Shown piece by piece: positions 43,607 through 47,405 of a stretch of DNA of 64,000 nt (within the stretch, counting starts at the first letter, position 1; every line of letters begins with the position of its first letter). The notes under the pieces were generated by a model that ran no database searches, was not told the origin of the DNA, and saw nothing but the letters and a program-made list of their open reading frames with translations. This DNA comes from an uncultured Hyphomicrobiaceae bacterium. Its GTDB lineage: Bacteria; Pseudomonadota; Alphaproteobacteria; Rhizobiales; CAMYJA01. The DNA lies in NCBI GenBank assembly GCA_947258705.1, contig CAMYJA010000005.1, positions 23,915 to 87,914 of the forward strand, written 5' to 3'. A program made the translations under genes and the position numbers.

Positions 43607-44608
43607 TCATGCTTCTTCGAATGGATCGGCCACGCCCTCGGTCTCAAATCCAAGCAGCTTCCATGTCGCGGCCATGTGCTCGGGCAATGGCGCATCGACC
43701 TTCACCTGTCCCTTGTCGGGATGCGGAAACGAAATTGACCGCGCATGGAGGTGAAGCTTCGACGAGATCTCACCACCCGGATGCGCTTTTCGGCCGCCAT
43801 ATTTTCCGTCCCCCACAATCGGGCATTCCATCATCGCAGCATGCACGCGCAACTGATGCGTCCGCCCCGTAACCGGTTGCATCGCCACCCAGGCAAAGCG
43901 GTTGGCCGCCTGATCGATGACTTGATAACGCGTAATCGCGCGCACCCCCCCGCCCTGTGCGTCCTCATTGACGTCTTCCATGAGCTGCCGCCCCGGCCGG
44001 GCGCTTTTCTCGAGCCGGCTTTCGACCTCTCCCTCAAGCGGCCGCGGCACGCCGCATGTCAGTGCCCAGTAAAGCTTCGTCGTCTTCCGGCTTTTCAACA
44101 GATCCGCCATATGGCGCGCGGCAAGCCGGTCCCGCGCCAGCACCAGAACCCCGCTTGTATCCTTGTCGAGGCGGTGCACCAGGCGCGGTCGCGTGGCGGC
44201 TCTGAATTTCAGGCCGTCCAGCAAAGCGTCAAGATGCCGGCTCTGTCCGGTGCCGCCCTGAACGGCCAGACCGGGCGGCTTGTTGATCACGATTATTCGT
44301 TTATCCTTGTGCAGCACCAGACTTTTGAGGAATTCTTTTTCCTCCCGGCCAATTCCACGGGCTTCCGGGCTTGTCCGTTTTTCCCCCTGACCTCCCGTCA
44401 GCACATTCGGCGGCACCCGCACGGATTGCCCAGGGCTGACCCGCACATTCGATTTCGTCCGGCCGCCATCGAGCCTGATCTGACCCGACCGCAACAGCTT
44501 CTGCAATTTGCCGAATGTGAGGTCCGGATAATGCGTTTTGAACCATCGGTCGAGACGCATGCCGTCCTCGTCCTCAAGCACAACGCGTGCAACGAGCTTG
44601 CCGTTCAT
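43607..44608 (-). CDS. rluC: RluC/RluD-family rRNA pseudouridine synthase
   Basis: An S4 RNA-binding domain opens the protein (MRLDRWFKTHYPDLTFGKLQKLLRSGQIRLDG) and the catalytic domain carries RLVHRLDKDTSGVLVLAR with the catalytic aspartate and a late QPVTGRTHQLRVH motif. The enzyme isomerises uridine in 23S rRNA; RluC or RluD cannot be separated here. It overlaps crcB upstream by four bases and leads into HAD and ATP12. Confidence 0.88.
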   Translation of the reverse strand: MNGKLVARVVLEDEDGMRLDRWFKTHYPDLTFGKLQKLLRSGQIRLDGGRTKSNVRVSPGQSVRVPPNVLTGGQGEKRTSPEARGIGREEKEFLKSLVLHKDKRIIVINKPPGLAVQGGTGQSRHLDALLDGLKFRAATRPRLVHRLDKDTSGVLVLARDRLAARHMADLLKSRKTTKLYWALTCGVPRPLEGEVESRLEKSARPGRQLMEDVNEDAQGGGVRAITRYQVIDQAANRFAWVAMQPVTGRTHQLRVHAAMMECPIVGDGKYGGRKAHPGGEISSKLHLHARSISFPHPDKGQVKVDAPLPEHMAATWKLLGFETEGVADPFEEA

Positions 44609-44985
44609 CTCAGAAACTCTCTTGCGATGTAAAGCCCTGCCAGTAACGCAAAGATCGACAGTCCGACGCTACCCAACAGATAAAAAAATGCGGAGCCATA
44701 ATCCTTGCGTTCGTAAAGCGTGACAAAATCAAGCGAAAAAGCCGAGAATGTCGTAAAGCCGCCGAGTATGCCGGTTGTCATGAAAACACGGACTTCCTGC
44801 GGCGCGCTGTAACGGAGCGCCCACGCCTCAATCAGAAGCCCCATGAAAAGACATCCCACAATATTGACAATCAGAGTGCCCCAGGGAAATCCATGGCCGA
44901 TCAAGCGCACGGCGGAGATGCCGACGAGATAGCGCGCCGAAGCGCCAATGGCGCCACCCGCGGCTGCCAGAAATATGAGTTTCAT
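44605..44985 (-). CDS. crcB: fluoride channel CrcB/Fluc
   Basis: The 126-residue protein has four helices and the Fluc hallmarks: GTLIVNIVGCLFMG, and TTGILGGFTTFSAFSLD with the phenylalanine box. It exports fluoride as a dual-topology dimer. Its stop overlaps the start of the pseudouridine synthase gene. I looked for a fluoride riboswitch in the 175 bases upstream and saw none. Confidence 0.93.
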   Translation of the reverse strand: MKLIFLAAAGGAIGASARYLVGISAVRLIGHGFPWGTLIVNIVGCLFMGLLIEAWALRYSAPQEVRVFMTTGILGGFTTFSAFSLDFVTLYERKDYGSAFFYLLGSVGLSIFALLAGLYIAREFLR

Positions 44986-45160: not shown

Positions 45161-45397
45161 TTATTCAGACGCACCTGCCCGCGCAAAGAGACCGCCGATC
45201 GCAAGTCCGATCAGCCAGCCCAGGACCATGGCCAGAAATCCGGTGCCCAGATAGACCATGTTATGCAGGTTCATCGCCTCGTCCGGGCTTGAAAAGGTCT
45301 GCGTGCCGGTCACATAGTTACTGACGATGGGCGCGAGGTAAAGGACTCCTCCCACCGCACCACCAGCCGCGCCCAAAAAGGCTAATAATACCTTCAT
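45161..45397 (-). CDS. 78-residue two-helix membrane protein coupled to the Tae4-like gene (candidate immunity or partner protein)
   Basis: Two hydrophobic helices (VLLAFLGAAGGAVGGVLYLAPI and MVYLGTGFLAMVLGWLIGLAIGGLF) flank a short polar loop of about 25 residues (NYVTGTQTFSSPDEAMNLHN). No family is recognised. The ATG at 45397 has GGGAGGT immediately upstream and overlaps the TGA of the amidase gene (ATGA), so the two are very probably translated together. Known Tae4 immunity proteins (Tai4) are periplasmic and soluble, so if this is the immunity protein it belongs to another type. A holin-like or unrelated role is also possible. Confidence 0.6.
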   Translation of the reverse strand: MKVLLAFLGAAGGAVGGVLYLAPIVSNYVTGTQTFSSPDEAMNLHNMVYLGTGFLAMVLGWLIGLAIGGLFARAGASE

Positions 45398-45906
45398 TTG
45401 ACCTCCCAAAACCAGATCTGCTTTGCCCGGTCATAACCGCCATAATAGCCGAGCCATGAAAACCACTCCATCAACCAGCCCGATGTCGAGCGGTAGCCAT
45501 TCCACAAGTCGATATGATCGCCACTGGCATTGCCGGGCGCTTCACCGCTCCGCCGCCAGTAATCCTTGAAAAGAATGAGCCCCCTGCGGCCGAACAGTTG
45601 ACTATAAAAATCTGCCGCTGTCTCGCCCGTAAATTTTTCTGTGGCCCCGACCCCCGGAACGCCCCCGCGGGAGAAACTGCGCGCCACTTCCTCCGCCCTG
45701 AGATAATGCATCTGATCGCTGTCATGCACTCTGCATGTAATGGCGCCCGACATTTCACTTGGCTTGACGCCCGCCGCCCGCAGGCACTCCCCCATGCGGA
45801 TCGCGCATTGGTTGGAATAGGTCGGGAATCCATTATCCATGCGGCATGGAAACTGAACTGACCGGTTTGTCGGATGATTTCTCCAAAGAGTCGCAAAATC
45901 AACCAT
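45394..45906 (-). CDS. Tae4-like peptidoglycan amidase (NlpC/P60-type)
   Basis: The 170-residue protein resembles the Tae4 effectors of type VI secretion: LWRNHP near the start, the catalytic cysteine C34 in YSNQCAIRMGECLRAAG, LILFKDYWRR, and the histidine and aspartate in GDHIDLWNG (H131, D133). Such enzymes cut the peptide stem of peptidoglycan. There is no signal peptide, so export by a secretion system or release on lysis would be needed to reach the wall. No T6SS structural gene is in the window. The ATG at 45906 has AAGGGA eight bases upstream. It is coupled to a downstream membrane protein. Confidence 0.8.
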   Translation of the reverse strand: MVDFATLWRNHPTNRSVQFPCRMDNGFPTYSNQCAIRMGECLRAAGVKPSEMSGAITCRVHDSDQMHYLRAEEVARSFSRGGVPGVGATEKFTGETAADFYSQLFGRRGLILFKDYWRRSGEAPGNASGDHIDLWNGYRSTSGWLMEWFSWLGYYGGYDRAKQIWFWEVK

Positions 45907-46063
45907 GTACTAGATCCCTTGTAGAGGTGCTTTCTATTGTCATTATTATACCCCGTTCCTGCTCTGGCGGCACCGGCAAGGCACGGAAATTTTCATCATC
46001 GTCAGTATAGCCGATAGGTTTACGCCTGCAAATCTTGCAAAAAAAACGGCAAGCGGCGCCCAT
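45899..46063 (-). CDS. candidate 54-residue small ORF upstream of the Tae4-like gene
   Basis: An ATG at 46063 opens a frame that ends in TGA overlapping the first codons of the amidase gene. The peptide has an early CKICRRK and an acidic YTDDDENF stretch. However, its second part runs over a T8 tract that, with a weak GC stem (GGCGA/TTGCC), could instead be the rarA terminator. No good ribosome-binding site is seen. I list it as a possibility only. Confidence 0.25.
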   Translation of the reverse strand: MGAACRFFCKICRRKPIGYTDDDENFRALPVPPEQERGIIMTIESTSTRDLVHG

Positions 46064-46091
46064 TCGCCAAACCCAGAAGCAGCATTGCGGA

Positions 46092-47405
46092 TCAATTGCC
46101 TCCGCGCTTGATCCGGAGTTTCGCCCAATAATCGAGCCGCTTGCGGATTTCACGCTCAAACCCCCTGTCGGGCGGCATGTAATAGTGCTCCCGTTCCATT
46201 TCTTCGGGAAAATAACTCTGTCCCGAAAACGCATCCTCCGCATCATGATCATATTCATATCCGTCGCCAAATCCCTCATCCTTCATGAAGTCGGTTGGCG
46301 CATTGATAATATGCTTGGGTGGCGGCAGGGAGCCATATTTTTCGGCCGATCGCCTGACCGAATTATACGCTGCATAGGCCGCGTTCGATTTGGGCGCGGT
46401 GGCAATATAAATGCATGCCTGGGCAAGCGCCAGCTCGCCTTCAGGGCTCCCCAGAAGCTCATAGGCCTGCCGTGCCGCATTCGCCTGCACCAGGGCGTTC
46501 GGATCCGCGAGGCCAACCTCTTCAACCGCCATCCGCACCAGCCTTCGGGCGATATAAAGCGGATCTTCACCGCCTGCGAGCATCCGCGCCATCCAGTAAA
46601 GTGCGGCATCCGGATCCGATCCCCGCACCGATTTGTGCAATGCGCTGATAAGATTGTAATGCTCATCCCTCGATTTGTCGTAAACGGGCGCGCGCTTGTG
46701 CACCAGCTCGACCAACCCCTCCCGGTCGAGAAGCGTCTCCCTGCCGACAGTCGACAGAAATATGTCCTCGATCATGTTGAGCACCGCCCGTCCGTCGCCA
46801 TCCGCCATGGTAAAAAGCGCCTGCCGTGCATCATCGTCCAAAGGCAATTTGCGCCCCTCGAGCGCTTCTCCCCTCAGCGCCAATTGCTCGAGGGCATCGG
46901 CATCGAGCCGCCTGAAAGTAAGAACATTCGCCCGTGACAGAAGGGCGGAATTCAGCGAAAAGGATGGATTTTCAGTCGTCGCGCCAACCAGCGTGATGGT
47001 GCCGTCTTCCATATGCGGCAAAAAGGAATCCTGCTGGGCGCGATTGAACCGGTGGATCTCATCGACGAACAAAAGGGTTGAAAAACCGTCCTGACGCCGG
47101 GCCCGGGCGCCGTCGAATACCTTCCTGAGATCCTGAACGCCGGAAAAAATTGCCGAGATCTGCTCGAATTCATATTCGCATTGCGTCGCCAGAAGACGCG
47201 CGACTGTCGTCTTGCCGCTGCCGGGCGGGCCCCAGAAGATCACATTCGATATTGAGCCCGCGGCTAGCATGCGCCCGAGCGCACCTTCAGGTCCGATTAT
47301 GTGATCCTGTCCAACCACCTCATCGAGCGCTTGCGGCCGCAGACGATCGGCCAGGGGGCGCCGTCCCTCGGCACCCATCCCCGCGGCCTCAAAAAGTGTG
47401 CTCAT
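46092..47405 (-). CDS. rarA: replication-associated recombination protein A (MgsA/RarA/WRNIP1 family)
   Basis: RarA is an AAA+ ATPase that acts at stalled forks. Walker A is FWGPPGSGKTTVARLLA and Walker B is LLFVDEIHRFNRAQQDSFLP; the sensor segment is LVGATTENPSFSLNSALLSRA. The C-terminal domain includes KSVRGSDPDAALYWMARMLAGGEDPLYIARR. At 437 residues it is full length. It follows degP by about 30 bases. The next conserved neighbour in many relatives, crcB, is separated here by the amidase cassette. Confidence 0.95.
   Translation of the reverse strand: MSTLFEAAGMGAEGRRPLADRLRPQALDEVVGQDHIIGPEGALGRMLAAGSISNVIFWGPPGSGKTTVARLLATQCEYEFEQISAIFSGVQDLRKVFDGARARRQDGFSTLLFVDEIHRFNRAQQDSFLPHMEDGTITLVGATTENPSFSLNSALLSRANVLTFRRLDADALEQLALRGEALEGRKLPLDDDARQALFTMADGDGRAVLNMIEDIFLSTVGRETLLDREGLVELVHKRAPVYDKSRDEHYNLISALHKSVRGSDPDAALYWMARMLAGGEDPLYIARRLVRMAVEEVGLADPNALVQANAARQAYELLGSPEGELALAQACIYIATAPKSNAAYAAYNSVRRSAEKYGSLPPPKHIINAPTDFMKDEGFGDGYEYDHDAEDAFSGQSYFPEEMEREHYYMPPDRGFEREIRKRLDYWAKLRIKRGGN

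Follow-up and report, generated by a model that had tools for sequence, protein, structure and literature searches.

The window, by which is meant the whole stretch of 64,000 nucleotides analysed from an uncultured Hyphomicrobiaceae bacterium, carries on its minus strand a run of genes in which a small peptidoglycan amidase and a smaller membrane protein stand between rarA and crcB. In the direction of transcription the features are:

46092 to 47405, minus strand: rarA (mgsA), the upstream flank of the conserved site
45907 to 46091, minus strand: the stretch between rarA and the amidase gene, with one promoter-like site, TTTGCA-17-TATACT, at 46032-46004
45394 to 45906, minus strand: a Tae4-family peptidoglycan amidase of 170 residues, with C34, H131 and D133 and no signal peptide
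45442 to 45480, minus strand: codons for amidase residues 143-155 (GWLMEWFSWLGYY), an aromatic, amphipathic segment that follows the active site and is typical of the Hyphomicrobiales clade
45161 to 45397, minus strand: a two-helix membrane protein of 78 residues, with helices predicted at 2-32 and 38-76 and SPDE at the turn
44605 to 44985, minus strand: crcB, the downstream flank of the conserved site

The amidase reading frame is as the original prediction described it, with the motifs NQCAIRMG (holding C34) and GDHIDLWNG (holding H131 and D133), and its placement beside rarA was also correctly given, as was the order degP-rarA-crcB-pseudouridine synthase, a common one in related genomes. 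Two codons 5′ of the amidase ATG there is an in-frame TAG, which excludes an N-terminal extension or a hidden signal peptide, and with the start fixed by that stop the claim that the protein has no signal peptide holds. The promoter-like site is a consensus match only, there being 4 such sites in the region where 1.6 would be expected by chance, and as to SOS control, a LexA-type box was not found in the upstream regions of the clade beyond isolated pattern matches.

The Pfam Tae4 profile (PF14113, for which the curated cut-off is 27 bits) is covered by the amidase over all of its 125 positions at 79.3 bits and an E of 3.4e-22, and a profile of the amidase family searched against the PDB finds Ssp1 (4bi3, E 7e-8) and the Agrobacterium Tae4 (6ijf, E 3e-7). 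When the AlphaFold2 model of the amidase (pLDDT 88.6) was compared with the PDB by Foldseek, there were four matches below E 0.001, all to Tae4 (E 3e-6 to 1e-4, TM about 0.6), the next match having a probability of 0.10; the predicted fold is the NlpC/P60-type fold of Tae4. By profile alignment C34, H131 and D133 fall on C50, H133 and D135 of Ssp1, the triad being that of PMC6277958, and so the proposed Cys-His-Asp set has the same layout, Cys followed by His-x-Asp, as the triads of the Serratia and Agrobacterium enzymes (PMC6277958). With Pfam, the profile search of the PDB and the predicted fold all bearing it out, the identity of the 170-residue protein as a Tae4 amidase is well supported, and by analogy with the family its substrate would be the gamma-D-Glu-mDAP bond.

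The aromatic segment, WLMEWFSWLGYY, has a mean hydrophobicity of about 1.1-1.2 and a moment of about 0.5, is typical of the Hyphomicrobiales amidase clade except for one member (L131), the gamma and phage relatives being more polar there, and may dock the amidase to the membrane or to the two-helix partner, AlphaFold2 confidence within the segment being low at about 55. Cysteines 21 and 58 are nearly invariant in the alignment of the clade, both being absent only from L117 and L126, and a disulfide between them is possible in the amidases of the clade. Those two, which are sister lineages (L117:1435-2085 and L126:1907-2611), are also the sole clade amidases with a Sec-type signal peptide, judged from inspection of the N-termini, and this suggests that the periplasm is a useful place for the amidase to be; nearly all amidase copies examined have no signal peptide.

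The amidase had been taken for an orphan, and that description does not survive. Its stop codon and the ATG of the 78-residue gene share 4 bp (ATGA), and it belongs to an obligate unit of two genes, of which the coupled membrane gene is the part missing from the earlier observation. The family model shows the 78-residue protein as a hairpin in which a short SPDE turn joins two long helices (pLDDT 94), and its relatives have two hydrophobic segments. Pfam, PHROGs and NCBIfam gave it no name; the matches there were weak and generic, of a hydrophobic or glycine-zipper kind. The PADLOC models of anti-phage defence matched neither it nor the amidase, and a known system of that kind was rejected for the pair on that ground. 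When a two-helix profile was run against 298 genomes of the order it gave 24 strong matches, all in amidase carriers, along with four weak ones (E above 1e-4) that fall in other frames, and no genome among the 298 has the two-helix gene without the amidase. Strict pairing of this sort across the order marks the pair as one unit. Profiles of the alpha and the gamma two-helix family match one another with a probability of 90.6 and an E of 1.3e-6, scores of a kind that membrane composition inflates.

How widely, and how faithfully to this site, is the unit kept? An amidase match is present in 28 of the 298 genomes and lies after rarA in 25, which belong to 11 families; in all 24 of these syntenic carriers with enough sequence the two-helix gene is directly next, and crcB or the pseudouridine synthase gene then follows in every one except G016. 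Among 60 named Hyphomicrobiales loci, with carriers that include Hyphomicrobium, Filomicrobium, Rhodomicrobium and MAGs called Methyloligella, the partner is present at all 60, crcB or the pseudouridine synthase gene is downstream at 55, and rarA is upstream at 47 of the 56 with room upstream. At four loci (L092, L112, L130 and L131) the usual flanks are absent or out of view and the pair is still together. Genomes that do not carry it often have rarA and crcB close to one another (about 20 nt apart at L168, 10-50 nt at L170 and L179), so the original prediction was right that the insertion is an addition to an otherwise tight block. Calling that addition an accessory cassette was not right, as the amidase sits after rarA in 25 of 25 sampled carriers from 11 families and, as set out below, its composition, selection and divergence also contradict the term; what replaces it is a conserved two-gene unit free of T6SS. 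It had been put forward that the idea would fail if the same gene were present here in all close relatives. The window's own genome is the sole sampled member of its family and the relatives compared are those of the wider clade; in that clade the gene is largely present at this place, with some losses.

Synteny, base composition, selection and divergence all reject a recent horizontal insertion. GC3 of the amidase gene is 0.63, and that of the neighbours 0.59-0.70; the amidase has a dN/dS of 0.03-0.19, and most values for the partner are between 0.05 and 0.34, one distant pair giving 0.61; and the distances of amidase and partner track those of RarA (Mantel r 0.70 and 0.65, p 0.0001). The window has no tRNA within 26 kb, and neither long flanking repeats nor an RNA family was found nearby. 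In the amidase tree the Hyphomicrobiales sequences group as one clade (SH-aLRT 85), and though a tree of RarA alone does not separate the deep branches of the order, a single gain at the rarA-crcB site would be the simplest history, not a proved one. Within family f2 the RarA tree shows losses. There, one syntenic amidase (G289, L063:8381-9234) is dead, its catalytic Cys34 having become Ser and His131 Leu, with the two-helix gene kept, and three congeners are without both genes. That dead copy, together with the several other members of the Hyphomicrobiales without the pair, indicates that the pair is not essential everywhere.

The same losses are what might be expected of a decaying relic of a lost T6SS that has no present function. 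Yet apart from that one copy the catalytic motifs are intact in every other full-length amidase examined (the Cys and His motifs are kept in 90 of 90 relatives), and the dN/dS range is that of a gene under strong purifying selection. A functionless relic is already largely refuted by the selection measured, and as an explanation it is scarcely tenable.

As a T6SS origin is what the family would suggest, it matters whether such a system is at hand. In the window's own genome, which is estimated to be 100% complete, profiles for TssC, Hcp and Tai4 (PF16695) were all unmatched, and the absence of a T6SS there is well supported. At the locus no linked PAAR, VgrG or Hcp gene was found, the neighbours being housekeeping genes. 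Across the order TssC was detected in 48 of the 298 genomes and in 0 of the 25 syntenic carriers (Fisher p 0.02, with kinship ignored), and it was likewise found in 0 of 30 named carriers. The search does detect the system where it would be expected, as three genomes of family f50 with a divergent Tae4 of 313 residues have TssC, about 5 kb off in one of them (G197), and so do 18 of the 20 genomes that carry the closest amidase relatives from outside the order. That longer Tae4 (L065:8185-9126, and also L066 and L067) has about 140 extra N-terminal residues. Tai4 is absent from all carriers as well as from the window's genome, but since its profile is also unmatched in the f50 genomes, where Tae4 is T6SS-linked, a missing PF16695 match alone does not disprove an unusual immunity protein.

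Might the pair then be a still-active antibacterial toxin with an inner-membrane immunity protein, released without a T6SS by lysis, vesicles or some unknown exporter? Relatives beyond the order bear on this. Two genes arranged in this way are also present in Pseudomonas, in Marinobacter, in a Bdellovibrionota MAG, on a Pantoea plasmid and on contigs of virus collections, and where TssC was sought it was, as noted, in 18 of 20 such genomes. In two virus-collection contigs (L010:4387-5836 and L009:1389-3026) a PAAR gene is just upstream of the amidase gene and a membrane protein with two or three segments is encoded downstream; these rows are apparently T6SS effector modules, and the PAAR gene suggests effector-immunity operons. 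The position of the membrane gene in them is that of an immunity gene, and so the window's partner may be only an immunity protein. Elsewhere, a Pseudomonas pair (L132:6301-8764) has as its neighbours an S-type pyocin, which includes a cytotoxic domain, and a cloacin-type immunity gene, and two tandem Tae4-like genes stand 3′ of a gene for a Tse2-type ADP-ribosyltransferase (L149:2659-4839). In L002-L004 and L152 the pair is likely cargo of P2-like prophages. In L002 and L152 its neighbours are gpD-like or baseplate genes, in L003 it is close to gpA and in L004 it precedes the tail sheath gene, positions which we take to resemble cargo sites; L152 (4367-6740) is on a Pantoea agglomerans plasmid where the gpD-like gene is apparently from a P2-type phage remnant. 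The arrangement is not uniform, as the membrane protein encoded downstream of the amidase in L144, L147 and L150 is longer and looks different, and in L146 none was found there. Cultured phages gave no match, and a viral library no significant fold match. In most pairs, moreover, the faster-evolving member is the partner, which also speaks for this reading. Competition toxins, however, are usually patchy and mobile, whereas this pair is kept at one site across families and has no known exporter, and unlike many immunity genes the partner is never found alone in the order. On balance a toxin still in use is a rather unlikely account of the pair, one nonetheless to be taken seriously.

A cytoplasmic wall-cutting enzyme whose gene overlaps that of a small two-helix membrane protein also calls to mind lysis, with the partner as holin and the amidase as endolysin, the purpose being either programmed lysis or the release of phage or of gene transfer agent particles. 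The predicted topology of the 78-residue protein is compatible with a holin, but no significant match to a holin family was found, and in prophages the pair adjoins late-control, replication or tail-sheath genes, outside any recognised lysis cassette. GTA_TIM, a marker of gene transfer agents, was detected in 21 of the 25 carriers, but nearly as often in the non-carriers, at 181 of 273 (Fisher p 0.08), and a GH108 endolysin is already encoded in the gene transfer agent cluster, about 2.2 kb from GTA_TIM. In the window's own genome, outside the window (G000:C4:66454-69841), GTA_TIM is at C4:66454 and the endolysin gene downstream at C4:69569, an arrangement that recurs in many carriers. Gene transfer agent lysis was rejected as the main role for that reason, and a lysis pair in general is unlikely.

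MpaA, a peptidoglycan recycling enzyme, cuts the same bond as expected for Tae4, and a cytoplasmic enzyme that cuts imported muropeptides or precursors in the manner of MpaA, with the membrane protein as its scaffold, would need no signal peptide, which nearly all the copies lack. The strict pairing with a membrane protein and the Sec-type signals of two lineages speak against this, and it is very unlikely.

The explanation favoured, though tentatively and at somewhat short of even chances, is that the pair is an old acquisition of effector/immunity type that has been domesticated as a membrane-coupled peptidoglycan endopeptidase acting on the cell's own wall. Amidase and 78-residue protein, derived from a Tae4-type effector and a membrane partner, would be one functional unit, gained between rarA and crcB by an ancestor of the Hyphomicrobium/Filomicrobium/Rhodomicrobium/Methyloligella-type lineages and from then on passed down by vertical descent with no T6SS. 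The Tae4 of Salmonella does no damage in the cytoplasm and is toxic once in the periplasm (PMC3695027), and a Tae4 with no signal peptide is accordingly safe for the cell until the inner membrane is crossed. In the domesticated unit the amidase would be made in the cytoplasm, where it would do no harm, and the two-helix partner would hold it at the inner membrane or pass it through, perhaps with help from the aromatic segment near the catalytic residues; once on the periplasmic side, the amidase would cut the peptide of the cell's own peptidoglycan with the partner in control. A more speculative and on present showing unlikely step is that a T6SS effector and a new two-helix family have become, in mostly budding alphaproteobacteria, a dedicated device whose hairpin both restrains a folded cytoplasmic endopeptidase and lets the own wall be cut, for wall remodelling in budding or for controlled lysis.

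Comparison with known systems sets the pair apart from each. The Tae4/Tai4 pairs of T6SS (Serratia Ssp1, 4bi3; Agrobacterium, 6ijf; Salmonella, 4j30; Enterobacter, 4hfl) have an amidase of the same family and fold, with Cys-His-Asp in the layout seen in Serratia and Agrobacterium, no signal peptide and an adjoining partner gene; here, in contrast, the genome has no T6SS, the partner is a two-helix membrane protein rather than exported soluble Tai4, inheritance is vertical at a housekeeping site, and a clade-specific aromatic segment follows the active site. The pairs of Pseudomonas, the Pantoea plasmid, P2-like elements and PAAR rows are of the same amidase subfamily, at about 30-45% identity and usually with an adjacent two-helix gene, but they belong mostly to T6SS-bearing hosts or mobile elements and not to a fixed chromosomal site. 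Holin-endolysin cassettes share neighbouring genes for a small membrane protein and a cytoplasmic wall-cutting enzyme; the window pair differs in having no holin family match, in standing outside a lysis cassette and in drawing its enzyme from a family of T6SS effectors. The Dae proteins of ticks and other eukaryotes are Tae-family amidases that serve the host itself, with no T6SS involved; they are secreted eukaryotic proteins of Tae2 origin and are not known to have a membrane partner. If the window amidase is domesticated, such own use would be common to both. Domesticated amidase effectors are among the subjects treated in PMC11347951.

In the open literature, with subscription papers mostly outside the search, no paper was found that names Tae4 together with Hyphomicrobium. 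Tae-family amidases are treated, and automatically annotated, as T6SS weapons, and here a Tae4 gene has been stably retained through vertical descent in a clade with no T6SS detected and with a partner of no named family. If the favoured explanation is true, the pair would be a bacterial counterpart to the domesticated amidase effectors of eukaryotes, its two-helix protein a candidate new class of membrane-bound Tae4 partner, and the two together a tractable question about the cell wall of budding bacteria.
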